Shown here: in pieces, positions 6,187-22,524 of the stretch
How the letters are laid out: every line of letters starts with the position of its first letter
How positions within the stretch are numbered: position 1 is the stretch's first letter
DNA from: Rhodococcus rhodnii NBRC 100604
GTDB lineage: Bacteria > Actinomycetota > Actinomycetes > Mycobacteriales > Mycobacteriaceae
Reading direction: 5' to 3'
Assembly: GCF_001894925.1 (NCBI RefSeq)
Contig: NZ_BCXD01000008.1
Location: forward strand, 1 to 64,000
DNA: 64,000 bases
Notes under the pieces: generated by a model
The model's input: only the letters and a program-made list of their open reading frames with translations
The model's database searches: none
Told to the model about the DNA's origin: nothing
Position numbers and translations under genes: made by a program

Positions 6187-7599
6187 TTACGCCTCGATCG
6201 TGCCGTGCACCACGGCCGAGTGCGCCGCGATCGCGGCGTCGAGCGTCGCGAGATCGCGACGGCACGCGGCGACCTTCCCCGACCGTTCGGCGCCGGACCG
6301 CCGCAGCCGAGCGTCGAGGTCGGCCAACTCGGTGTCCAGCCGCGCCGACGACGCGCGATGCGCCGATTCGAGATGCTCGCCGAGCGCGGCCTCGACGACG
6401 AGCACCCGCGCGAGGACGAGCTGCTCCCAGTCGGCGCGCAGCTGCCCGCTCACGTCGACCACCCACGACCGGACGTGCCCGCGGTCGGCCGCCAGGCCGC
6501 GGGCACGCGAGAGGAGCAGTGCGACGACGCCGCCCAGCACGACGATCGCGAGGGCCGTCACGAGCTCGCCGCCGGGCGCAGCGAGCGGTGCGACGACCCA
6601 CCTGCCGAGGCCGAAGCCCGCGGACGCGCCGACGACGACGGTCATCGTGTCCTCGACGCCGCGATGGCGCCGCGTGGGTTCGCCCACGTCGACGCGGGCG
6701 GTGGGCGGTGACGGCGGCAGCGTCGTCCCGAACTCCGCCGCGACGGCGGCGAGCCGGTCGTCGACGAGCCGGTCCACCGTCGCCGACGCCGCGGCCGTGG
6801 TCTGCCGCCACCGGACGGGGAAGTCCGCGAGCTCACGGCGGCCGGCGCGGTCGACGACGGTGCGCGCGTCGGCCGCGAGACCGCGGGCCCGCACGCCGAC
6901 GTCGTGGAGCAGCGCGACCTTCGTCAGCTGGACGCGGCTGCGCATCGACGTCGCCTGCTCCCGGCGCGCGCCGTCACGCTCGGCGACGAGCGCACGGCGG
7001 CGTTCGCGTACGTCGGTGGCGAGATCGCCGTCCCGCAGATGGGCGAGCGTCGTCGCGACGATGGTCCGCGTGTCGGTGAAGGCGACGTCGATCGAGGGAG
7101 CGGCGCCCGTAACGGCGCCGATACGGTCCACGACGGCATCGAGCCACGCGCCGGGACCAGGGTGCGCATCGAGCGGCGAGACGGCGGGCTCGACCACACC
7201 GTGTGCCGCGAGGAGCGCCGAGTCGCGATCGGCGATCGCGCGCCAGCGCCCGTCGGGGTCGGCTCCGGGCATCACGAACACGACGGGCACGCGGTCGCGG
7301 GCCACCGCGTCGAGCAGGGCGAGTTCTTCGCGCCCGAGCACCGACGCGACGTCGAGCACGAACACGACGGCGTCCACCGGGCCGGGCAGCGCAGGATCGA
7401 ATGAGCCCGTACCGGGCCGGGCAGCATCTGACCGGCCGGCGATCTCGATGCCCGCCCGGCCGAGCGCGTCGGCAACGCCCTCGGTGCCCACGGGCCCGGC
7501 GACTCTCACCCGCACCGGTCCGCCGCCGAGTCGCCGGGCCGCACGCGGATTCCATCGAGCGAGGACCTCCCAGGCCTCGCTCACGGTGTCATCGGTCAC
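6187..7599 (-). CDS. Degenerate dynamin/GTPase-like membrane-associated protein
   Basis: About 470 aa. The GTG start at 7599 overlaps the end of the upstream gene by 11 bp, which implies translational coupling. The N-terminal third looks like a P-loop fold that has lost its nucleotide motifs: the Walker A position reads VAGPVGTEGV and the NKxD position is replaced by MPGADPDG. A long Arg/Ala-rich helical region follows. Two adjacent membrane helices (about residues 330-375) lie near the end, then a coiled-coil-like C-terminus. The architecture suggests a paired bacterial dynamin-like protein, but loss of the catalytic motifs makes GTP hydrolysis unlikely. The pair occupies the same trmB-proximal position as uncharacterised mycobacterial genes. 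Confidence 0.65.
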   Translation of the reverse strand: MTDDTVSEAWEVLARWNPRAARRLGGGPVRVRVAGPVGTEGVADALGRAGIEIAGRSDAARPGTGSFDPALPGPVDAVVFVLDVASVLGREELALLDAVARDRVPVVFVMPGADPDGRWRAIADRDSALLAAHGVVEPAVSPLDAHPGPGAWLDAVVDRIGAVTGAAPSIDVAFTDTRTIVATTLAHLRDGDLATDVRERRRALVAERDGARREQATSMRSRVQLTKVALLHDVGVRARGLAADARTVVDRAGRRELADFPVRWRQTTAAASATVDRLVDDRLAAVAAEFGTTLPPSPPTARVDVGEPTRRHRGVEDTMTVVVGASAGFGLGRWVVAPLAAPGGELVTALAIVVLGGVVALLLSRARGLAADRGHVRSWVVDVSGQLRADWEQLVLARVLVVEAALGEHLESAHRASSARLDTELADLDARLRRSGAERSGKVAACRRDLATLDAAIAAHSAVVHGTIEA

Positions 7600-8407: not shown

Positions 8408-8579
8408 GCGTTCCTCCTCCCCGCGGGTGGGGATTCTGTCAGATTGCTGAGAATCCGGTCGCAGTGAACGCGCAGCTCGAACACAACGTCGCAGGCAGAC
8501 GGCGTGCGCGAACCTGAACTCTCGATGTGAGGTCGAGCGCTGTGTGCCGGAACCGACGCTGATACGTGACAATGGTCCG

Positions 8580-9422
8580 GTGAACCACGCAGACCACGAC
8601 ACCGTCGGTCGGGTGAGCGGCGCCGATCGGCCCGGCTCTCCGAGCGGCAACGGGCAGCGGGGACGCGACCGCGACGGACGCGGCTCGCACCTGTATCCGC
8701 GCGTCACCAGCTTCCGATCCCGGCGCGGCACACTCACCGACGCACAGCAAGGAGCGTGGGACCGGCAGTGGGAGCGGCTCGGCTCCGAGGTAGCGCCGGA
8801 GCGTCACCTCGACACCGACGCGCCGCGTCACCTCGACACCGACGCGCCGCGTCACCTCGACACCGACGCGTGGTTCGGCCGCAGCGCCCCCCTCGTCCTC
8901 GAGATCGGCAGCGGCACCGGCACCGCGACGTCCGCGATGGCGCAGGCCGAGCCCGAACTCGATCTGCTCGCCGTCGAGGTCTACCGGCCCGGCATCGCGC
9001 AGTTGCTGCAGCAGATCGAGCGCGCCGAGCTCGGCAACATCCGGATCCTGCGTGGCGACGCCGTCGTCGTCCTCGAGGAGATGCTGGCGCCGCAGAGCCT
9101 CACCGCGGTGCGCGTCTACTTCCCGGACCCGTGGCCCAAGGCCCGCCATCACAAGCGGCGGCTGCTGCAGTCGGGCACGTTCGCGCTCGTCGCGGATCGG
9201 CTGAAGCCGGGCGGCCTGCTCCACATCGCCACCGACCACGCCGAGTACGCCGAGCACATCTCGGAGACGGGCGACGCCGAACCTGCGTTGCGACGGCTCG
9301 ACTGGCACGATCCGGGAATGAAGCTTCCCGTGTCGGTGCAGCGGCCCGTCACCAAGTTCGAGAACAAGGCCCACGACGTGGGGCGGGAGATCAACGACAT
9401 GATCTGGATCAAGCCCTCATGA
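8580..9422 (+). CDS. trmB: tRNA (guanine-N7-)-methyltransferase
   Basis: About 280 aa from GTG 8580; a GTG at 8544 is possible and neither start has a good Shine-Dalgarno, so leaderless translation is plausible. It makes m7G46 in tRNA with SAM. Motif I is VLEIGSGTGTAT. The TrmB signature VRVYFPDPWPKARHHKRRL and the final catalytic-loop region are intact. The insert before motif I holds almost three copies of an eight-residue repeat, RHLDTDAP, encoded by a 24-bp tandem repeat. The stop overlaps the next gene's ATG (ATGA). Confidence 0.93.
   Translation: MNHADHDTVGRVSGADRPGSPSGNGQRGRDRDGRGSHLYPRVTSFRSRRGTLTDAQQGAWDRQWERLGSEVAPERHLDTDAPRHLDTDAPRHLDTDAWFGRSAPLVLEIGSGTGTATSAMAQAEPELDLLAVEVYRPGIAQLLQQIERAELGNIRILRGDAVVVLEEMLAPQSLTAVRVYFPDPWPKARHHKRRLLQSGTFALVADRLKPGGLLHIATDHAEYAEHISETGDAEPALRRLDWHDPGMKLPVSVQRPVTKFENKAHDVGREINDMIWIKPS
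8802..8870 (+). repeat. 24-bp in-frame tandem repeat inside trmB
   Basis: The unit begins CGTCACCTCGACACCGACGC and repeats at 8802, 8826 and 8850, the last copy partial (21 bp). Each unit encodes RHLDTDAP, so copy-number changes keep the frame. The copies are identical at nucleotide level, which points to recent slippage. Confidence 0.95.
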
Positions 9423-10105
9423 GCGTGACCGAGCACTCCGAACTCGATACCGCGCCCGCGACGACGTCGCCGCAGGCCCCCAAGCGCGTTCTGCTCGTGT
9501 GGGACGCACCGAACCTCGACATGGGGCTCGGCGCGATCCTCGGTGGCAGGCCCACCGCCGCGTACCGGCCGCGTTTCGACGCGCTCGGCCGGTGGCTGCT
9601 CTCGCGCACCGCCGAGATCTCGGCAGCGACGGGCGAGGCCCTCGAGCCCGAGGCGACCGTCTTCACCAACATCGCGTCCGGCAGCGCCGACGTCGTGCGC
9701 CCGTGGGTCGAGGCCCTGCGCAACGTCGGTTTCGCGGTCTTCGCCAAGCCGAAGATCGACGAGGACAGCGACGTCGATTCCGACATGCTCGATCACATCG
9801 CGCAGCGTCGGGTCGACGGGCTCGCGGCCGTGATGGTCGCGTCGGCCGACGGCCAGGCGTTCCGCGAACCGATCGAGGAGCTCGCCGAGACGGGGCTGCC
9901 CGTCCAGGTGCTCGGCTTCCGCGAACACGCGAGCTGGGCGGTGTCGTCGGATCTCATCGACTTCGTCGACCTCGAGGACATCCCGGGTGTCTTCCGCGAG
10001 CCGCTGCCGCGGATCAGTCTCGACAATCTGCCGGACGAGGGCGCCTGGCTGCAGCCGTTCCGTCCGCTCTCCGCCCTGCTCGTGGGCCGCAAGAGTGCCG
10101 AATAG
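9419..10105 (+). CDS. NYN-domain (PIN-like) protein
   Basis: 228 aa. It starts at ATG 9419 in a 4-bp overlap with trmB and ends 10 bp before mmpL3. The NYN nuclease fold is shown by the N-terminal acidic motif LLVWDAPNLDMGL, an internal SDMLDHI acidic site and VASADGQAF, the expected metal-ligating Asp positions. It resembles mycobacterial Rv0207c, which lies in the same trmB-NYN-mmpL3 order. A ribonuclease role is inferred from the fold; the substrate is unknown. Confidence 0.85.
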   Translation: MSVTEHSELDTAPATTSPQAPKRVLLVWDAPNLDMGLGAILGGRPTAAYRPRFDALGRWLLSRTAEISAATGEALEPEATVFTNIASGSADVVRPWVEALRNVGFAVFAKPKIDEDSDVDSDMLDHIAQRRVDGLAAVMVASADGQAFREPIEELAETGLPVQVLGFREHASWAVSSDLIDFVDLEDIPGVFREPLPRISLDNLPDEGAWLQPFRPLSALLVGRKSAE

Positions 10106-10115
10106 GAGTTGATCG

Positions 10116-12968
10116 GTGTTCGCCAGCTGGGGAAGGCTCGTCGTTCGCGGCCGTTTCACCGTCATCGGTATCATGGTCGCGGGCATGCTCGCGATGGCCG
10201 TGTACGGGCTCTCGTTGCAGGATCACCTGAGCCAGAGCGGATGGGACGACCCGGGCTCCGAGTCCGTCGCGGCCGCCAAGCTCGCGGACGGGACGTTCGG
10301 TCGCGACACGCAGGGCGACGTCATCGCGATGTATCGCGCGCCCGAGGGATCGACGGTCGAGGACCCAGCCTGGCAGGCGGAAGTGTCGGCGAGTCTCACC
10401 CGGATCGTCGAGGAGAACCCCGACCGGATCCTGCAGGCCAACGGCGGTTTCTTCGAGGTCGGTGACGCGCCGCAGTTCCCGCAGTTCGCGAGTCCCGACG
10501 GCCGGTGGGGCATCGAGTCGATCGCCATCGCCGGCGACAACGACACCGAGATCACGCAGAACTTCCGCGACGTCAAGGACGAGTTCTACGCCGACGGACT
10601 CGACGTCCAGCTGGCCGGCCTGCAGCCGGTCGCGGGCGCCCTCAACGACACGATGGCCGAGGACATCAAGCGCATGGAGATCCTCGCGATCCCGGCGGTC
10701 GGTGTGCTGCTCTTCTTCGTGTTCGGCGGTGTGGTCGCGGCCGCGTTGCCGCTGGTCATCGGTGGTCTCACCGTCATCGCCGCGAACGGCATCGTGCGGC
10801 TGTTCGCCGAGTTCACCGAGGTGAACTCGTTCGTGGTTCCCGTCGTCTCGCTCATCGGTCTCGGTCTCGCGATCGACTACGGGCTGTTCATCGTCAGTCG
10901 TTTCCGAGAAGAGCTCGCCGACGGCTACGAGGTCGATGCCGCGGTCAGACGCACCGTCATGACGGCGGGCCGCACCGTCGTCTTCTCTGCGACGATGATC
11001 GTCGCGAGCCTCGGTGGTCTGCTCATCTTCCCGCAGGGCTTCCTCAAGTCGGTCGCGTACGGCGCAATCGCGACCGTCACCCTCGCGGCCATCGCGTCGA
11101 TCACGATCCTGCCGGCGCTGCTCGCGATCATCGGGCGCCGCGTCGACGCGCTGACCTTCGAGCGGCTCCGCCAGAACAAGACCTCCGAGGAGATCGAGGC
11201 CGGCTTCTGGGGGCGCACCACCGCGTGGGTGATGCGCAATCCGCTCAAGGTGACGATCCCGATCGTCATCGGCCTGCTGCTGCTCATCACGCCGCTGACG
11301 GGTATCCGGTTCGGCGGCATAAACGAGACGTACCTGCCGCCCGGCAGCGACACCCGCGTCGCGCAGGAGACGTTCGACGAACAGTTCCCCGGGATGCGGA
11401 CGGAGCCGGTCAAGCTCGTCGTGACCGACGCGAGCAATCAGGAACTCGGCCAGATCCTCCGCGACGCGAGCGAGGCACCCGGTCTCGTCGAACGCTTCTC
11501 CCCCGAAGGCGCGGCGCAGGACGGCGTCGTCGTCCTCAAGGCCGGTCTCGAGAACCGCAACGACTCGGATTCGACGATCGAGTATCTGCGGTCGATCGAT
11601 GTCCCCGACGGCGTGCAGGTGCTCGTCGGCGGCACTCCCGCGATCGAGTACGACTCGATCCAGGCGCTGCTCGACAACCTGCCGCTCATGATCCTCATCG
11701 TCGTGGGGCTGACGACGGTGCTGATGTTCCTCACGTTCGGGTCGCTCGTGCTACCGATCAAGGCCGCGTTGATGAGTGCGCTGGGGCTCGGCGCGACACT
11801 CGGCATCCTCACGTGGATCTTCGTCGACGGCCACGGCGCCGACGCGCTGAACTTCACGCCGGGTCCGATCATGTCGCCGGTGCTCGTGCTCATCATCGCG
11901 ATCATCTACGGCCTGTCGACCGACTACGAGGTATTCCTCGTCTCCCGGATGGTGGAGGCGCGCGCGAAGGGCGCCTCCACGGCGGAGGCGGTGCGGGTCG
12001 GCACGGCCCACACCGGCCGCATCATCACCGCGGCGGCGCTCATCCTGATCGTGGTCACGGGTGCGTTCGCGTTCTCCGAACTCGTGATGATGAAGTACAT
12101 CGCGTACGGCATGATCGCGGCTCTGCTCATCGACGCCACCATCATCCGGATGGGCCTCGTGCCCGCCGTGATGAAGATGCTGGGCGACGATTGCTGGTGG
12201 GCGCCGCGCTGGATGCAGCGCATCCAGGAGCGGATCGGCCTCGCCGAACCGATTCTCGACGACGAGCTGTCGTCGAAGGACATCCCGCAGCTGACGCCCG
12301 TCGCAGCGCCGCCCGGCCCGAACGCCGCGGCCACCCCCACCGCCACGGCGCGGCGCCCCGCCGACCCGCTCACCGAGCCCATTCCGCTCGCGTCGGGCTC
12401 GGCGGCGGCACCGGACGAGCGTGTGTCGCGGGAGGCAACGGAGGCGCGGCGTTCGGCGACGGGTCGCCCGTCACGCGCTCCCGGTGACGGCGACCCGCAG
12501 GGCGGCGGTCGTCCCACCACCCCGCCGGCGCGGCCCAGCGGTCCGGCCACCGAATCGCGGCCGATCGAGAGCTGGCTCGCGGACCTGCGGTCGACGTCGC
12601 CGGGGCCGCACACCTCTCCCGGCGAGCCACGTCGTGCCCAGCCTGCGGGCGGTTCGAGTGCTCCCCGGAACGGGACTCCGAGCGGTGGCACTCAGGGCAA
12701 CGGGACACCGAGCAACGGCGTCCCGAGCACCACTTCTCAGAGCTCCGGCACTCGGAGCAGCGGGGCAGGACGGAGCGGCGCTGGATCGGAGAGCACTCGT
12801 GCCAACGGCTCCGCGAACGGCGGCTCCGGAAGCACAGGCGCACCGAGTTCGGGCGGGCGGCGCAGCGCGCCCGATCCGGACGACGTCGCCGGTCGGCACC
12901 ACGCGGACGATCCCAATGCACTGAGTGTGAGCGAACTGCTCGCACGCCAGAAGCGTCGCGATCGCTGA
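10116..12968 (+). CDS. mmpL3: MmpL3-type RND transporter (trehalose monomycolate exporter)
   Basis: 950 aa, GTG start with AGGAG 7 nt upstream. It is an inner-membrane, proton-driven transporter that moves trehalose monomycolate for outer-membrane assembly. It has two six-helix bundles plus periplasmic domains. The proton-relay Asp-Tyr pairs are present in both halves (GLAIDYGLFIVSRFRE and GLSTDYEVFLVSRM). From about residue 720 the tail is cytosolic, disordered and Ser/Gly/Asn/Pro-rich with loose repeats such as GTPSGGTQGNGTPSNG. Placement after trmB and the NYN gene matches the mycobacterial mmpL3 locus and supports orthology over other MmpLs. Confidence 0.93.
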   Translation: MFASWGRLVVRGRFTVIGIMVAGMLAMAVYGLSLQDHLSQSGWDDPGSESVAAAKLADGTFGRDTQGDVIAMYRAPEGSTVEDPAWQAEVSASLTRIVEENPDRILQANGGFFEVGDAPQFPQFASPDGRWGIESIAIAGDNDTEITQNFRDVKDEFYADGLDVQLAGLQPVAGALNDTMAEDIKRMEILAIPAVGVLLFFVFGGVVAAALPLVIGGLTVIAANGIVRLFAEFTEVNSFVVPVVSLIGLGLAIDYGLFIVSRFREELADGYEVDAAVRRTVMTAGRTVVFSATMIVASLGGLLIFPQGFLKSVAYGAIATVTLAAIASITILPALLAIIGRRVDALTFERLRQNKTSEEIEAGFWGRTTAWVMRNPLKVTIPIVIGLLLLITPLTGIRFGGINETYLPPGSDTRVAQETFDEQFPGMRTEPVKLVVTDASNQELGQILRDASEAPGLVERFSPEGAAQDGVVVLKAGLENRNDSDSTIEYLRSIDVPDGVQVLVGGTPAIEYDSIQALLDNLPLMILIVVGLTTVLMFLTFGSLVLPIKAALMSALGLGATLGILTWIFVDGHGADALNFTPGPIMSPVLVLIIAIIYGLSTDYEVFLVSRMVEARAKGASTAEAVRVGTAHTGRIITAAALILIVVTGAFAFSELVMMKYIAYGMIAALLIDATIIRMGLVPAVMKMLGDDCWWAPRWMQRIQERIGLAEPILDDELSSKDIPQLTPVAAPPGPNAAATPTATARRPADPLTEPIPLASGSAAAPDERVSREATEARRSATGRPSRAPGDGDPQGGGRPTTPPARPSGPATESRPIESWLADLRSTSPGPHTSPGEPRRAQPAGGSSAPRNGTPSGGTQGNGTPSNGVPSTTSQSSGTRSSGAGRSGAGSESTRANGSANGGSGSTGAPSSGGRRSAPDPDDVAGRHHADDPNALSVSELLARQKRRDR

Positions 12969-17416: not shown

Positions 17417-18940
17417 GTGCAGAGGTCGTACAGAGCGATTGCGGTGACGCTCCGTAGTCGATGGCCGCTGTATCTGGGGTCCATGCTGGGGGCCAATCTC
17501 GTCGGCGCCGTGATGGTGTTCGCGTTCGTCCGGTACGGCCTTCCGATCCCCGAGTCGCTCGCGATCGTCTCCGATCAGTGGCGCAACACCGCGGTGTTCG
17601 GCGGGTATCTCGTGTTCGCGGCCGTCGTGAGCCTGTCGGCGGCGGCGCTGATGCTGCGGTCGGTGATTCGCTGGCAGTTGCGCGGCGGTGCGCCTCGGCG
17701 CAGCGAGCAGATGTCGGCGCTGCACGCTCCGTTGCGGCAGGCGATCGTCCACCTGGTGTTGTGGATCGGCGGCGGCATCATCTTCACGCTGCTCACGATC
17801 CAGGAGATGCCCGAGCTCGCGGTCGCGATCACGGTGACGGTCGCCCTCGCCGCGACGACGGTGTTCGGCTTCACCTACATGCTGGGCGAACGGATTCTGC
17901 GGCCGCTCGCGGCGCAGGCGCTCAGCGAGGGCGAGTTCGATCGGACGATGGCGCCGGGCGTCGGCACGCGGATGGGCATGACGTGGGGGCTCGGGACGCT
18001 GACGCCCGCGATCGGCATCATCCTGCTGTGCGTCACGCAGCTCACGACGGATCTCGCCTTCTCGCCCGACGCGCTCGCGTGGTCGATTCTGCTGCTCGCG
18101 CTCATCACGATCGGTGACGCGCTGCTGCTCTCGACGCTCACGGCGAGCCAGATCTCGGATCCGATCAAGCAGTTGCGCCGCGCGATCGAGCGCGTGCAGC
18201 GAGGCGCGACGGACGTGCGCGTCGAGGTGTTCGACGGCAGCGAGATCGGCCGGCTGCAGGTCGGGTTCAACCGGATGATGCGCGAGTCGGACGAGCGGCG
18301 GTTGCTGCGCGAGCTGTTCGGCCAGCACGTGGGTGAGGACGTCGCGCGCCGCGCGATCAAGTTCGGCACCGAACTCGGCGGCGAGACGCGCTTCGTCGCG
18401 GTGCTGTTCGTCGACATGGTGGGGTCGACGGGTGCGGCGGCGGAACGCCCGCCGGGCGAGGTCGTGGGGATGCTCAACGAGTTCTTCCGCGTCGTGGTGG
18501 ACGTCGTCGATCGGCACAACGGGTTCGTCAACAAGTTCATGGGCGACGCCGCGCTCGCGATCTTCGGTGCGCCCCTCGATCGTCCCGACGCGCCGACGGC
18601 GGCGCTCGCGGCGGCCCGCGAGTTGCGGTTCGCGCTCGACGACATCGTGGGTCTCGACATCGGGATCGGCGTGTCGGCCGGGCTCGCCGTCGCGGGCAAC
18701 ATCGGCGCGGCCGAGCGGTTCGAGTACACGGTCATCGGTGATCCGGTGAACGAGGCCTCGCGGCTGACGGAGCTCGCGAAGCTGCAGCCCAGCCGCGTGC
18801 TCGCGTCGACGAGCGCGCTGTACTTCGCCGACGAGGACGAGCAGCGGCACTGGGCGCTGGGGGATCGCGTCAAGCTGCGGGGGCGTCGCCGCGACACGCA
18901 TCTGGCGTTCCCCGTCGAGTTCCCTCGGCACGAGAGCTGA
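17417..18940 (+). CDS. Membrane-bound class III adenylate cyclase with HAMP domain
   Basis: 507 aa from GTG 17417. Six membrane helices (about residues 15-255) are followed by HAMP (ASQISDPIKQLRRAIERVQRGATDV...) and a class III cyclase domain (about 320-490). The metal Asp residues are in FVDMVGST and MGDAALAIFG, the substrate Lys is in NKFMGDA, and the adenine-specifying Asp is in VIGDPVNEASRL. It is therefore expected to make cAMP from ATP at the membrane, like mycobacterial Rv3645 (recalled). It is the last normal-GC gene before the lower-GC YcaO island. Confidence 0.9.
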   Translation: MQRSYRAIAVTLRSRWPLYLGSMLGANLVGAVMVFAFVRYGLPIPESLAIVSDQWRNTAVFGGYLVFAAVVSLSAAALMLRSVIRWQLRGGAPRRSEQMSALHAPLRQAIVHLVLWIGGGIIFTLLTIQEMPELAVAITVTVALAATTVFGFTYMLGERILRPLAAQALSEGEFDRTMAPGVGTRMGMTWGLGTLTPAIGIILLCVTQLTTDLAFSPDALAWSILLLALITIGDALLLSTLTASQISDPIKQLRRAIERVQRGATDVRVEVFDGSEIGRLQVGFNRMMRESDERRLLRELFGQHVGEDVARRAIKFGTELGGETRFVAVLFVDMVGSTGAAAERPPGEVVGMLNEFFRVVVDVVDRHNGFVNKFMGDAALAIFGAPLDRPDAPTAALAAARELRFALDDIVGLDIGIGVSAGLAVAGNIGAAERFEYTVIGDPVNEASRLTELAKLQPSRVLASTSALYFADEDEQRHWALGDRVKLRGRRRDTHLAFPVEFPRHES

Positions 18941-19086
18941 CCGAGCCCTCCCCACGCTATGCCAGTGCAAATCTCACAGGATGGCAAACCCGCCACTAGA
19001 ATCTGTCGATTTAGCTCGTACGAGCCCAGGGAGCAAGCGAATTGCCGGCTCGTCCATCGCTGAGATAGAAGAATCGAAGCTAGAAC

Positions 19087-20346
19087 TTATAGCCGAGATA
19101 TCGTTTTTCGCGACGGAACCACTAGGTGTCCATCCCGGATTAAAAGGAACCGCTCAACTCCAGGAATAAAAACATTCACGATTGCGAGGTCTTGCGATTC
19201 GAACCGGACCGAATAATAAGACTTCAAACCTCCATCCAGTAGCGCACTCGCCGCAGCCGCGACTTGCTCGACAGTATCAATGAAATAGCCGATACTATCG
19301 GGGAACTCCCGCGAACGCACATTCTCAATTCGACTATCCAAATCGAATTCACTTGCGCTTCGCAACTTCGAACCGGGCTCGCCAACACTCTTCTTTGAGT
19401 ACTCTAAGCCTTTCCGGGCGATAGACCCACTTTCAATCGCAAACTTTGATTGCGCTATTTCCGAAAGCGCGCGTTCAACTGCGTGTTCGTGAGAGATCGA
19501 TGAACCAGCCCCTCTCAATCGGTCATCAAGTAGCCTCACTCCAGGCGCATACGCAATATATGTCGGATAGTCTACCGACCCGACACAACGGATGACGTGG
19601 ATTCGAGACCCAATCACTGATTCCGATTGAATCCATTTCCCCCTCAGCGATTCCGGCACGGATTCACGATCGACCGAATTAATGGGTTGCGGCTTTGAAC
19701 TCAGGAACTGATCGGCAATGAATTCTGATACGAGATGTCGCTCAATCTGCTCATTAAGAGCATGCAGCAGTGCATCTTCGACTGTCACGCCCGCCGCCCA
19801 CCCTGTACTGGTGCAGTAGCGCGCGATGGGCCTGTAGTCGAAGCTGTCCCCAAGGCTCTGCCGAGCGTCTGCTGACTCAACAAATGAGGGGCTACTCAAA
19901 CCCAAGGGAACGTCGATTGGGCCTCGGTAATCCGCGGCCGGGGCGACAGCCCGATACTCGGCGCAAGCCATCAATCCCTCGGGGGCTTCACCGACAATAT
20001 CCGCCAGGAGATCGCCGGCGAGGGCCTCTTTGGCGACTCTACTAGAGCTGGCCAACTTAACAGTCTCCGCGGGAACGGAACACGATCGAGACACGTAATG
20101 CTCTAACGCCTCGAAAACTGCCCCGACTCGAGCAGATGCTGAGGATCCCTTTCCCATACCGAAAGCAATTCGCTCTCTGGAATTTGGGTATGCGCCCGAT
20201 GCGAAAAGGTCACATCGCCACGCCGCCGTGTCCTCGCAGATTCCGATACGCTCCACAACTGAAGTAAGCCCGAATTCTTCCACCGCACGGCGTGCGCTAG
20301 CTGCAGCGCAATCCAAACAGTGTGTTCGCTCGCCGAATCTACGCAA
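19087..20346 (-). CDS. YcaO-domain protein, candidate RiPP-modifying enzyme
   Basis: 419 aa from TTG 20346, with AGGAG about 8 nt upstream and an in-frame stop (TAG) just before it. YcaO enzymes use ATP to activate peptide amides and form azolines, thioamides or amidines. Family motifs are present: IAFGMGKGSS followed by FEALEHY (about 58-84), STGWAAGVTVEDALLHALNEQIERH (about 180-204), and ISHEHAVERALSEIAQSK (about 284-301). There is a CxxC at residues 10-13. The C-terminus is not the PxPxP end of classic azoline synthetases. No E1-like, TfuA, dehydrogenase or transporter gene adjoins it. It is second in a two-gene unit behind a 33-codon peptide gene and a hairpin. Confidence 0.85.
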   Translation of the reverse strand: MRRFGERTHCLDCAAASARRAVEEFGLTSVVERIGICEDTAAWRCDLFASGAYPNSRERIAFGMGKGSSASARVGAVFEALEHYVSRSCSVPAETVKLASSSRVAKEALAGDLLADIVGEAPEGLMACAEYRAVAPAADYRGPIDVPLGLSSPSFVESADARQSLGDSFDYRPIARYCTSTGWAAGVTVEDALLHALNEQIERHLVSEFIADQFLSSKPQPINSVDRESVPESLRGKWIQSESVIGSRIHVIRCVGSVDYPTYIAYAPGVRLLDDRLRGAGSSISHEHAVERALSEIAQSKFAIESGSIARKGLEYSKKSVGEPGSKLRSASEFDLDSRIENVRSREFPDSIGYFIDTVEQVAAAASALLDGGLKSYYSVRFESQDLAIVNVFIPGVERFLLIRDGHLVVPSRKTISRL

Positions 20347-20371
20347 GGCAACAATCTCCTAGATTTATGGA

Positions 20372-20402
20372 GCATCCCCGCAGCTCTAGGCTGCGGGGAT
20401 GC
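20372..20402 (-). terminator. Strong hairpin between peptide gene and YcaO gene
   Basis: Perfect 13-bp arms GCATCCCCGCAGC / GCTGCGGGGATGC enclose a 5-nt loop, starting 6 nt after the peptide gene stop and ending before the YcaO ribosome site. There is no U-tract. In RiPP operons a hairpin here usually acts as a partial terminator or RNA stabiliser, giving excess precursor over enzyme. Confidence 0.8.
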
Positions 20403-20408
20403 TATCGC

Positions 20409-20510
20409 TCAGAGCTGGTCGATCAGACTCATGATCTCTACCTCCACCTGAGCGAGATTCTGATCGGGGTCAGCGACCAGAAACCAATCTCCGAGAAAGA
20501 TGCCTGCCAT
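20409..20510 (-). CDS. 33-residue putative RiPP precursor peptide
   Basis: A short gene of 33 codons. The ATG at 20510 has a perfect AGGAGG 6 nt upstream, better than most genes in the window. The peptide begins MAGIFLGDWFLVADP, has an acidic amphipathic middle and ends EIMSLIDQL. The N-terminal half is hydrophobic and aromatic; the C-terminal half is rich in Asp/Glu/Leu/Ile, like a recognition helix. It has no Cys or Thr and a single Ser, so classic thiazole chemistry is impossible. The YcaO may instead form thioamides, an amidine or a macrocycle. An N-terminal core with a C-terminal follower (as in bottromycin) or a conventional leader are both open. Confidence 0.6.
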   Translation of the reverse strand: MAGIFLGDWFLVADPDQNLAQVEVEIMSLIDQL

Positions 20511-21147
20511 AACCTACCTCCTGATTCTCGACGGAGACCAATCTCCGTCCCACCTTACGGGCGGGCAAAATCGGCCAGTTGCCGCTCGTGCGAGCGGCCT
20601 GACCACGACTTGTTCGGGTGTGCACAGACATGGGTGCGGGCTACCGACCGCTGCGCCTGGCCGACTACTCCAGAACCCCAGATTCCGTTTGGTGGGTCCT
20701 GGGCGCCGCAGACCAGAACGATCAATCTCAAGAGCTTGCGTCCACAGCCTCCCCTTGGGCTGGCCCTCCTCGAGATTCGACGCCACCTGACTCGGAATGG
20801 ATGCAGCGTTGAATAACCGGTGTTACATGCGGATTTTGCATCCTCACATCCCAAAACCACACTCCTCCGACGCTAGCAATCCACCGCCAAGGACGCAAGC
20901 GTCAATGGGGTTCGATATCTTGCAGTTCGCGATAGAATTTCCGGTAGGCAAACAAGTGGAGAACCATTTGAATTATGGGTTATTCCTTCATCCATCTCGT
21001 TCTTTTTCTACCCCCAACCGTCGCAGTTAAGGACAGTTGAGGAAACATGAATTCGCTATCACCAAATTTGAGAGATTCTCGTAACTGGCGTCGATGTCAC
21101 GGCTTGCGGTTCGGCTCCTGCGCCGAGCGCGCGGTGCCGTAGCGCAC
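20511..21147. promoter_or_regulatory. Long non-coding region upstream of the peptide gene
   Basis: This 637-bp stretch has only unconvincing open frames on both strands. Next to the peptide gene's ribosome site is a hairpin, GACGGAGA / TCTCCGTC (20530-20549, 4-nt loop). Its loop side repeats 11 bp (ACCAATCTCCG) of the peptide gene exactly 54 bp away. A second perfect palindrome, GCCGCTCG TG CGAGCGGC, lies at 20581-20598. A -10-like TAAGGT occurs on the minus strand near 20553. The stretch 20820-21060 is AT-rich and looks like decayed or foreign DNA. Confidence 0.45.
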
Positions 21148-21300
21148 CTACGACTCGCGGCGGTAGAGGACGCCGAGCCAGACGAGCGCGGCCACGATCG
21201 CGGCGCCGCCGCTGACCATCGCACCGACGGCGAGGAGCATCGTGCCGACCGCGGCGAGCAGCGCGATGACACAGACGGACACCGCCAGGCGTGTGCGCAT
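21148..21300 (-). CDS. Small two-helix membrane protein
   Basis: 50 aa from ATG 21300, with AGGAGG 7 nt upstream; the longer frame to 21549 is antisense to the next gene. Two hydrophobic helices (LAVSVCVIALLAAVGTMLL and GGAAIVAALVWLGVLY) are joined by a short turn, with a basic end (YRRES). No family was recognised. It is divergent from the UPF0104 gene. Confidence 0.6.
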   Translation of the reverse strand: MRTRLAVSVCVIALLAAVGTMLLAVGAMVSGGAAIVAALVWLGVLYRRES

Positions 21301-21387
21301 CGCCGCTCCTCCTGCTCCGACAACGTGCCGACTGGATGGTAGCCGCGCCGTCGCTGCCGGGCGAGGCTCGTTCGTTACGCTGGCCCG

Positions 21388-22524
21388 GTGGCACCGCCTC
21401 GTTCGACCTCGCCTGCGTCCGACTCGTCTCGGCCGCGCAGGTGGCTTCGAATCACTGCGGCGCTGGTTCTGCTCGGCATTCTGACGGCCGAGGCGGTCTA
21501 TCTGTGGCCGACACTCCACGAGTCGTGGCGGGCACTCACCGAGATCCACTGGGGGTGGGTGGGCGCGGCGGTCGTGGCGCAGTTCGTCTCGCTCGGTGCG
21601 TACGGCCTGTTGCAGCAGCGGCTGCTCGGTGCCGGGGGCGTCGTGGTCGGGCGGAGGAGGTCGACGTCGGTGATTCTCGCCGGTACGGCGATGACGCTGA
21701 CGCTTCCGGCGGGGCAGGTCTTCTCGACGGCGTTCACGTACAAGCAGACGCGGCGGTGGGGTGCGACACCCGTGGTCGCGTCGTGGCAGCTCGCGATGTC
21801 AGGGGTCATGGCGGCGGCGAGCCTCGCAGCGATCGGCGCGGTGGGTGCACTCGCGTTCGGGACGCGGATCAGCCCCGTCGCGCTGGTCCTGACGCTCGTC
21901 GCGGCTATCGCGCTGTTCTCGGCCCTGCGGTACATCTCGCGGAATCCGGAGTCGATGCGCACGATCGGCGAGGCCGTGCTCGCGCGCTGGAATCGGCTGC
22001 GATCGAATCCGCCGGGGACGGGATCGGAGACGTGGGGCGCCGTTCTCGAGCAGCTCGACGCCGTCGAGTTGCGACGGCGCGACGGCGCGGCGGCGTTCGG
22101 CTGGTCGGCCGTCAATCGGGTCGCCGATCTCGCGTGTCTGGGGTTCGCGTGCTGGGCGGTGGGTGCGGAGCCGTCGTTCGCCGGGCTGCTCATCGCGTTC
22201 ACCGCGGCGAAGGCCGTCGGGAGCATTCCGCTCGCACCGGGCGGGCTGGGATTCGTCGACGGCGCGCTCATCGCGGCACTGACGGCGGCGGGCCCGACTG
22301 CGTCGGGCGCGCTGGCGGCCGTCTTCGTGTATCGCATCGTGAGTTTCGTGCTCATCGCGCTCGTGGGATGGCTCGTGTTCGCGGTGCTGTTCCGCTCGCC
22401 GCACGTCGGTGATTCCGAGTTGGCCGACGATCATCTCGATCGCGAGTACGGGCAGGGTCCGTCGCCGTTTCCGCGGCGTCGTCGCAGCGGGGTCGCTCCG
22501 GATCCCGATCCGGACCCGGTCTGA
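21388..22524 (+). CDS. UPF0104 / lysylphosphatidylglycerol-synthase TM-domain flippase-like protein
   Basis: 378 aa from GTG 21388. It has eight hydrophobic helices and the UPF0104 pattern, including LILAGTAMTLTLPAGQVFSTAF-like and AAKAVGSIPLAPGGLGFVDGAL segments; the PxxPGGxGxxE region is modified to PLAPGGLGFVD. It is an integral membrane protein related to the flippase half of MprF and lacks the soluble synthase domain. Lipid or polyprenol-linked glycan flipping is the family's suspected role. The C-terminus is polar with Arg and Pro. Confidence 0.8.
   Translation: MAPPRSTSPASDSSRPRRWLRITAALVLLGILTAEAVYLWPTLHESWRALTEIHWGWVGAAVVAQFVSLGAYGLLQQRLLGAGGVVVGRRRSTSVILAGTAMTLTLPAGQVFSTAFTYKQTRRWGATPVVASWQLAMSGVMAAASLAAIGAVGALAFGTRISPVALVLTLVAAIALFSALRYISRNPESMRTIGEAVLARWNRLRSNPPGTGSETWGAVLEQLDAVELRRRDGAAAFGWSAVNRVADLACLGFACWAVGAEPSFAGLLIAFTAAKAVGSIPLAPGGLGFVDGALIAALTAAGPTASGALAAVFVYRIVSFVLIALVGWLVFAVLFRSPHVGDSELADDHLDREYGQGPSPFPRRRRSGVAPDPDPDPV

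Follow-up and report, generated by a model that had tools for sequence, protein, structure and literature searches.

The 64,000-nucleotide stretch of Rhodococcus rhodnii DNA analysed here (the window) carries a small peptide gene followed by a stand-alone YcaO gene, and sequence comparisons suggest, with somewhat better than even confidence, that the two make up a minimal RiPP pair of the bottromycin type, gained by horizontal transfer. The downstream YcaO would act on the 33-residue peptide, and the most likely reaction, by analogy with bottromycin, is the formation of an amidine by the N-terminal amine of the peptide. The features of the region are the following:

17417-18940, HAMP/adenylate-cyclase gene, flanking
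18941-21365, insertion of about 2.4 kb with approximate ends, placed by gene spacing in ten congeneric genomes
19087-20346, minus strand, gene for a stand-alone YcaO enzyme of 419 aa from a BtmF-like clade, placed by Pfam, alignment, motifs and trees
20371-20403, minus strand, perfect 14-bp hairpin with a 5-nt loop between the peptide and YcaO genes, supported by folding and shuffles
20409-20510, minus strand, putative precursor peptide gene of 33 codons, an ORF with AGGAGG 6 nt 5′ of its ATG
20511-21090, minus strand, upstream region of about 0.58 kb with no convincing gene, presumably holding the promoter
20517-20522, minus strand, Shine-Dalgarno AGGAGG of the peptide gene, from the sequence and a Shine-Dalgarno (SD) scan
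21388-22524, LPG-synthase-TM gene, flanking

The enzyme belongs to the YcaO superfamily, as it matches Pfam PF02624 over the full domain (E = 1.4e-25, profile positions 1-325 of 325) and keeps the conserved residues of the GKG (G65-G67), ExxEH (E79/E82), NExxER (E199/E202/R203) and ExxQ (E296/Q299) motifs. Its reading frame is full length with no internal stops, and its TTG start is preceded by AGGAG, in agreement with the separate ribosome site that an earlier note on this DNA had given it. The C-terminus, ...LVVPSRKTISRL (VVPSRKTISRL), has no PxPxP. PADLOC returned nothing for the protein, and no match was found in the viral contigs and phage records that were searched for the YcaO. Among solved structures, the best match of the window-family profile was MJ1094 (6pe3) at 72.9 bits, and structure prediction with two sequences gave a pLDDT of 37, too low for use.

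The affiliation of the enzyme was examined with an alignment and profile (A1) of the window YcaO and six relatives, which was run over the fetched loci. A search with NF033414, the bottromycin precursor model, found no bottromycin clusters in the phylum sample and one among 296 genomes from another genus of the class (L044). In this cluster the precursor MGPVVVFDCMTADFLNDDPNNAELSALEMEELESWGAWDGEATS (BtmD) is followed by two YcaO genes; the first was assigned as BtmE (thiazoline) and the second as BtmF from the gene order and functions given in PMC5103208, without an annotated record. BtmF is the macroamidine synthase of bottromycin (PMC5103208), and the bottromycin YcaOs work without partner proteins (PMC7136475). 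The window-family profile matched BtmF over its full length with 183.6 bits, against 28 bits for BtmE, about 83 bits or less for TfuA-associated, TfuA-fused and other YcaOs, and 13.5 bits for the streptamidine-like YcaO of the same genome. Comparison by hhalign gave E values of 1.3e-34 for BtmF and 7.9e-10 for BtmE. BtmF is only about 25% identical to the window YcaO, which counts against the bottromycin-type reading. In a maximum-likelihood tree, from whose rows ItfB was absent, the window YcaO grouped with those of L001, L006, L007, Vibrio, Pantoea, Mycobacteroides and L045 and with BtmF, apart from all others (support 100/99), and a second tree with BtmE and more rows gave the same split. 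The branching order inside this clade is poorly supported, and the window forms a long branch. Judged by its sequence, the window YcaO belongs to the BtmF-type clade and is not of the azoline, TfuA or streptamidine type.

With the stand-alone macroamidine synthase BtmF in the same clade, the evidence favours an amidine over other products. The earlier note had proposed a new backbone modification such as a thioamide or amidine; the amidine is plausible, and no wholly new modification need be invoked. A thioamide- or azoline-forming system is very improbable. The NCBIfam matches of the YcaO include the McrA-glycine thioamidation and SagD models, but these matches are weak and far below the curated cut-offs. 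TfuA-associated thioamidating YcaOs resemble the window enzyme in having the YcaO fold and no E1 partner, whereas a thioamide is unlikely here because the genome lacks TfuA (PF07812 was absent from the whole genome and matched in a control genome) and the trees put the enzyme outside the TfuA-type group. Azolines are likewise unlikely: the E1-like or Ocin-ThiF partner of an azoline TOMM cyclodehydratase is absent from the insert, the enzyme does not end in PxPxP, and in place of a Cys/Ser/Thr-rich core the peptide offers one Ser and no Cys or Thr. The earlier note had read the lack of PxPxP and of Cys and Thr correctly.

The putative precursor gene is, as described before, a short minus-strand gene with a perfect Shine-Dalgarno sequence, and it is presumably translated. 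Its product, MAGIFLGDWFLVADPDQNLAQVEVEIMSLIDQL, starts Met-Ala and has no Cys, no Thr and one Ser, which lies in the C-terminal half; the first 27 residues contain no azoline site or other heterocyclisable residue, none occurring before position 28. Searches of the peptide against Pfam and NCBIfam gave no match, and NF033414 did not match it either, while the BtmD control scored 105.9 bits. Similarity to the peptides of relatives and to BtmD is below significance (BtmD, p about 0.12), so that the identification as a precursor rests on position, size, Shine-Dalgarno and start. When the 454 nt 5′ of the YcaO gene were shuffled by dinucleotides, an AGGAGG-preceded ATG ORF of 25-90 codons appeared in 1.2% of the shuffles, and the 33-codon ORF is therefore unlikely, yet possible, as a chance product. 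In the upstream region no sigma-70-like site was found on the minus strand; part of this region has the lowest GC (47%), and no RNA family there was convincing.

The hairpin has its arms at 20371-20384 and 20390-20403. The earlier note had correctly placed a perfect hairpin after the peptide stop, with 13 bp and a distance of 6 nt where 14 bp and 5 nt were measured. The folding of this region is 3.7 sd more favourable than that of its shuffles, and just 0.04% of dinucleotide shuffles of the same 454 nt contained a stem as long as 11 bp, which puts the hairpin well outside what chance would give. A U-tract is lacking, and the hairpin is absent from the terminator-scan list. L006, L010 and the bottromycin cluster (L044) have hairpins in the corresponding position. 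The structure is perhaps an attenuator or a protector of the mRNA 3′ end, and it may set the ratio of precursor to enzyme.

A homologous YcaO lies directly 3′ of a small ORF in eight related loci. These ORFs are preceded by a Shine-Dalgarno sequence, have 38-60 codons and all start Met-Gly:

L001, Actinomadura, upstream ORF MGNRVDFKRCESLDSRRQTLTEAERERLEEL..
L006, Streptomyces plasmid, upstream ORF MGTGDLKLLCTAATG..
L007, Nonomuraea, upstream ORF MGNVVDYVSVASLDRWSQHLTEAELARLEELTAGDGEE
L008, L009 and L086, Vibrio plasmids, upstream ORFs MG(N/K)KRSEIN..
L010, Pantoea plasmid, upstream ORF MGYLNSGISNSN..
L011, Mycobacteroides plasmid, upstream ORF MGITRTERVV..

The window has the same arrangement, with Ala as the small residue after Met. 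The records of L006, L009, L010 and L011 give these ORFs as genes; in L001, L007, L008 and L086 the ORFs were chosen by us, so that the count of Gly-2 in six of six independent lineages, to which the window adds Ala-2, is indicative. As a background, 7.6% of the 79 other ORFs in the loci that have 25-90 codons and a preceding SD carry Gly-2. BtmD of L044 also starts MG, with the BtmE gene between BtmD and BtmF. Two observations count against the preferred reading: the window peptide starts MA where the others start MG, and the clade includes L045, in which no MG-type ORF was found. The YcaOs of the relatives are 23-34% identical to that of the window by alignment, with L011 more distant; genome G620 (L047) has the same YcaO score and MG peptide as L011. 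The peptides are clearly related only within L001/L007 and within L008/L009 (with L086), and BtmD and L007 are marginally similar (p 0.012). The 'GxFLGDW-like' N-terminal pattern that the earlier note had named as a test is not conserved in the relatives, whose common feature is the Met-Gly start, the sequences being otherwise diverse. Its suggestion of a link between peptide and enzyme fared better, since a small SD-preceded gene stands directly upstream in each close YcaO relative checked and the clade contains BtmF.

These pairs also bear on a different explanation, in which the YcaO acts on a host protein or a distant precursor and the 33-codon ORF is either a product of chance or a regulatory leader whose hairpin controls the YcaO gene. 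The shuffle frequency, the lack of significant likeness to any relative's peptide and the strong hairpin after the ORF, as in leader-peptide arrangements, would fit such an explanation. However, a small ORF occupies this position in each close relative, in four cases as an annotated gene, and the explanation leaves this recurrence unaccounted for; an enzyme from an established precursor-YcaO pathway belongs to the same clade, and the hairpin lacks a U-tract and has counterparts in precursor-YcaO loci, including the bottromycin cluster. We consider this explanation improbable.

Several relatives differ from the window in having extra neighbour genes, namely a dehydrogenase, methyltransferase, ABC or MFS transporter, or NACHT gene. 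An ABC transporter gene adjoins the pair in L008, L009 and L086, and a methyltransferase gene in L010. On the Streptomyces plasmid a SagB-type dehydrogenase gene (L006:10442-11914) follows the BtmF-like YcaO and MG peptide genes, which might add an oxidation. In Actinomadura (L001:9279-11459) and Nonomuraea (L007:10292-12475) the YcaO gene is followed by one for a NACHT/STAND ATPase, and the pair may lie in a conflict-type island in these two; the Nonomuraea locus also has genes for a trypsin-like protease and a subtilisin-like protein nearby. On the Mycobacteroides chelonae plasmid (L011:9112-10101), a protein with HEALH (HExxH) and no Pfam match is encoded after the YcaO.

In ten congeneric genomes about 35-90 bp separate the two flanking genes, both of them ordinary chromosomal genes; in the window the distance is about 2.4 kb, which indicates that the cassette is an insertion. 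The right junction lies near 21365, where the window resumes its match to relatives (CGTTCGTTACGCTGG). The peptide gene, YcaO gene and spacer have a GC content of 53-57% (YcaO about 54%) against about 69-72% in the flanks, so the low GC reported earlier holds, and GC3 is 0.53 in the YcaO gene against 0.93 in the adjacent cyclase gene. GC returns to a host-like level over the final 0.3 kb of the insert (21091-21365). A 50-codon ORF within it (21148-21300, minus strand), also of host-like GC, would encode a small membrane protein, of which two congeneric genomes have weak relatives at other places; the ORF may be part of the insert and has no obvious link to the pair. The host-like GC and this ORF at the insert end suggest that the insert may have two parts. 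No convincing terminal repeats were seen at the insertion ends, and Rfam gave no match on the insert. A search of 27 congeneric genomes yielded no relative of the window YcaO. Searches of the phylum returned the window itself only, among the best four to six candidates scored per genome, and are weak because so few were scored. The pair lies in an insertion whose GC3 is foreign, which speaks for the horizontal acquisition in the preferred reading.

No E1-like, TfuA, dehydrogenase, protease or exporter gene was recognised in the insert, as the earlier note had said of the surroundings of the pair. With two recognisable genes only, the insert could be seen as what is left of a larger bottromycin-like cluster that arrived by horizontal transfer and is decaying or no longer functional, and tailoring or export genes do adjoin the pair in L006, L010, L008, L009 and L086. 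Such decay is nevertheless highly doubtful: the YcaO gene runs to full length without a stop in its frame, its motifs are intact, no traces of further biosynthetic genes were seen in the insert, and the L001 pair likewise has no obvious tailoring or export gene directly next to it.

If the two genes form a bottromycin-type pair, the proposed pathway would begin with removal of the initiator Met by the host methionine aminopeptidase, exposing the N-terminal amine. Gly and Ala at position 2 both allow Met removal, and Ala-2 would thus permit it here, leaving a proposed N-terminal core of AGIFLGDW.. The YcaO would bind the acidic C-terminal half of the peptide as a follower and act without a partner, using ATP to activate a backbone amide near the N-terminus. 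Attack of the N-terminal amine on the activated amide would give a (macro)amidine with loss of water (-18.011 Da), which would take the computed [M+H]+ of the untagged, Met-less peptide from 3559.80 to 3541.79. If residue 1 closes onto residue 4, as in bottromycin, the ring would comprise A1-G2-I3-F4. Release and export might be left to host functions, which is a guess, and the product would probably serve as a secreted or signalling peptide. An amidine is the likeliest outcome because a stand-alone BtmF-type enzyme with intact motifs is combined with a peptide that has no early heterocyclisable residue and a small exposed N-terminus. Cyclisation of bottromycin is contingent on Met removal, with attack of Gly1 on the Val4-Val5 amide as a plausible route, and is aided by the amidohydrolase BtmI (PMC5103208). 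The insert has no BtmI-type amidohydrolase gene, which counts against the pathway proposed here.

Amidines of another kind were also considered. Streptamidine was the first candidate family and was dropped after comparison with PMC8442711. Like the ami system, the window has an amidine-forming YcaO, by predicted chemistry, and a short Cys-poor precursor. The streptamidine precursor consists of a leader, an HLSATH core and a follower, and its cluster needs AmiB, AmiC, AmiE and Fec-like transporters (PMC8442711), whereas the insert has no AmiA-type precursor, AmiB, AmiC, AmiD-type YcaO, AmiE or Fec-like transporter and the window enzyme is a distant relative. The same genome has a separate streptamidine-like cluster (L092, G000:C37) with the peptide MIDNAETEAVYTIEDTDQLAHLSASHSNALVENPFD (HLSASH, ALV) at 7154-7264, a second YcaO (frame 8440-10335), an AmiB-like ORF and a Fec-type permease. 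The pair could still be a RiPP system whose YcaO makes another amide-derived group, either a six-membered N-terminal amidine by streptamidine or klebsazolicin chemistry or, like ItfB, an internal backbone amidine derived from free ammonia. Small-ring amidines have been reported from YcaOs (PMC8442711), as has NH4Cl as the source of nitrogen in a backbone amidine (PMC11002830), and the opening 27 positions of the peptide are free of heterocyclisable residues. We regard this possibility as unlikely, although not negligible: the enzyme groups with BtmF, apart from the streptamidine-like YcaO of its own genome, and the common Met-Gly/Ala start suggests that the N-terminus is what reacts, while leaving the ring size free.

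The proposed N-terminal macroamidine pair is like the bottromycin system in several ways: its YcaO stands alone, has no E1 partner and comes from the same clade; its small upstream precursor gene starts with Met and a small residue; the acidic C-terminal half of its peptide could serve as a follower; and a hairpin lies downstream of the precursor gene. In contrast to that system, it has one YcaO and no BtmE, a peptide without Cys at core position 8, and no radical-SAM methyltransferases, P450, amidohydrolase, aminopeptidase or exporter, and its precursor is not recognised by NF033414. The unmatched model, the single YcaO and the lack of tailoring genes indicate that the product is not bottromycin.

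In the open-access literature, with supplements and most subscription papers outside the search, no description of a two-gene BtmF-type system was found. Within the literature covered, macroamidines were limited to bottromycin, the product of a multi-gene pathway, and no function was reported for most stand-alone YcaOs. Since the insert carries little beyond the genes for a peptide and a BtmF-branch enzyme, it may be among the smallest sets of genes from which a ring-closed (amidine) peptide is made. More tentatively, and with rather less than even confidence, stand-alone BtmF-type YcaOs and their MG/MA peptides could constitute a widespread, uncharacterised RiPP class in Actinomycetota and Gammaproteobacteria in which the core is the N-terminus of the precursor, with the window as the simplest form, where two genes suffice for a Cys-free macrocyclic amidine without tailoring enzymes. 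A two-gene system would make it convenient to learn whether closing a macroamidine on a simple peptide takes nothing beyond a BtmF-type enzyme, and the Met-Gly/Ala start that the peptides have in common provides a rule for finding more such precursors.
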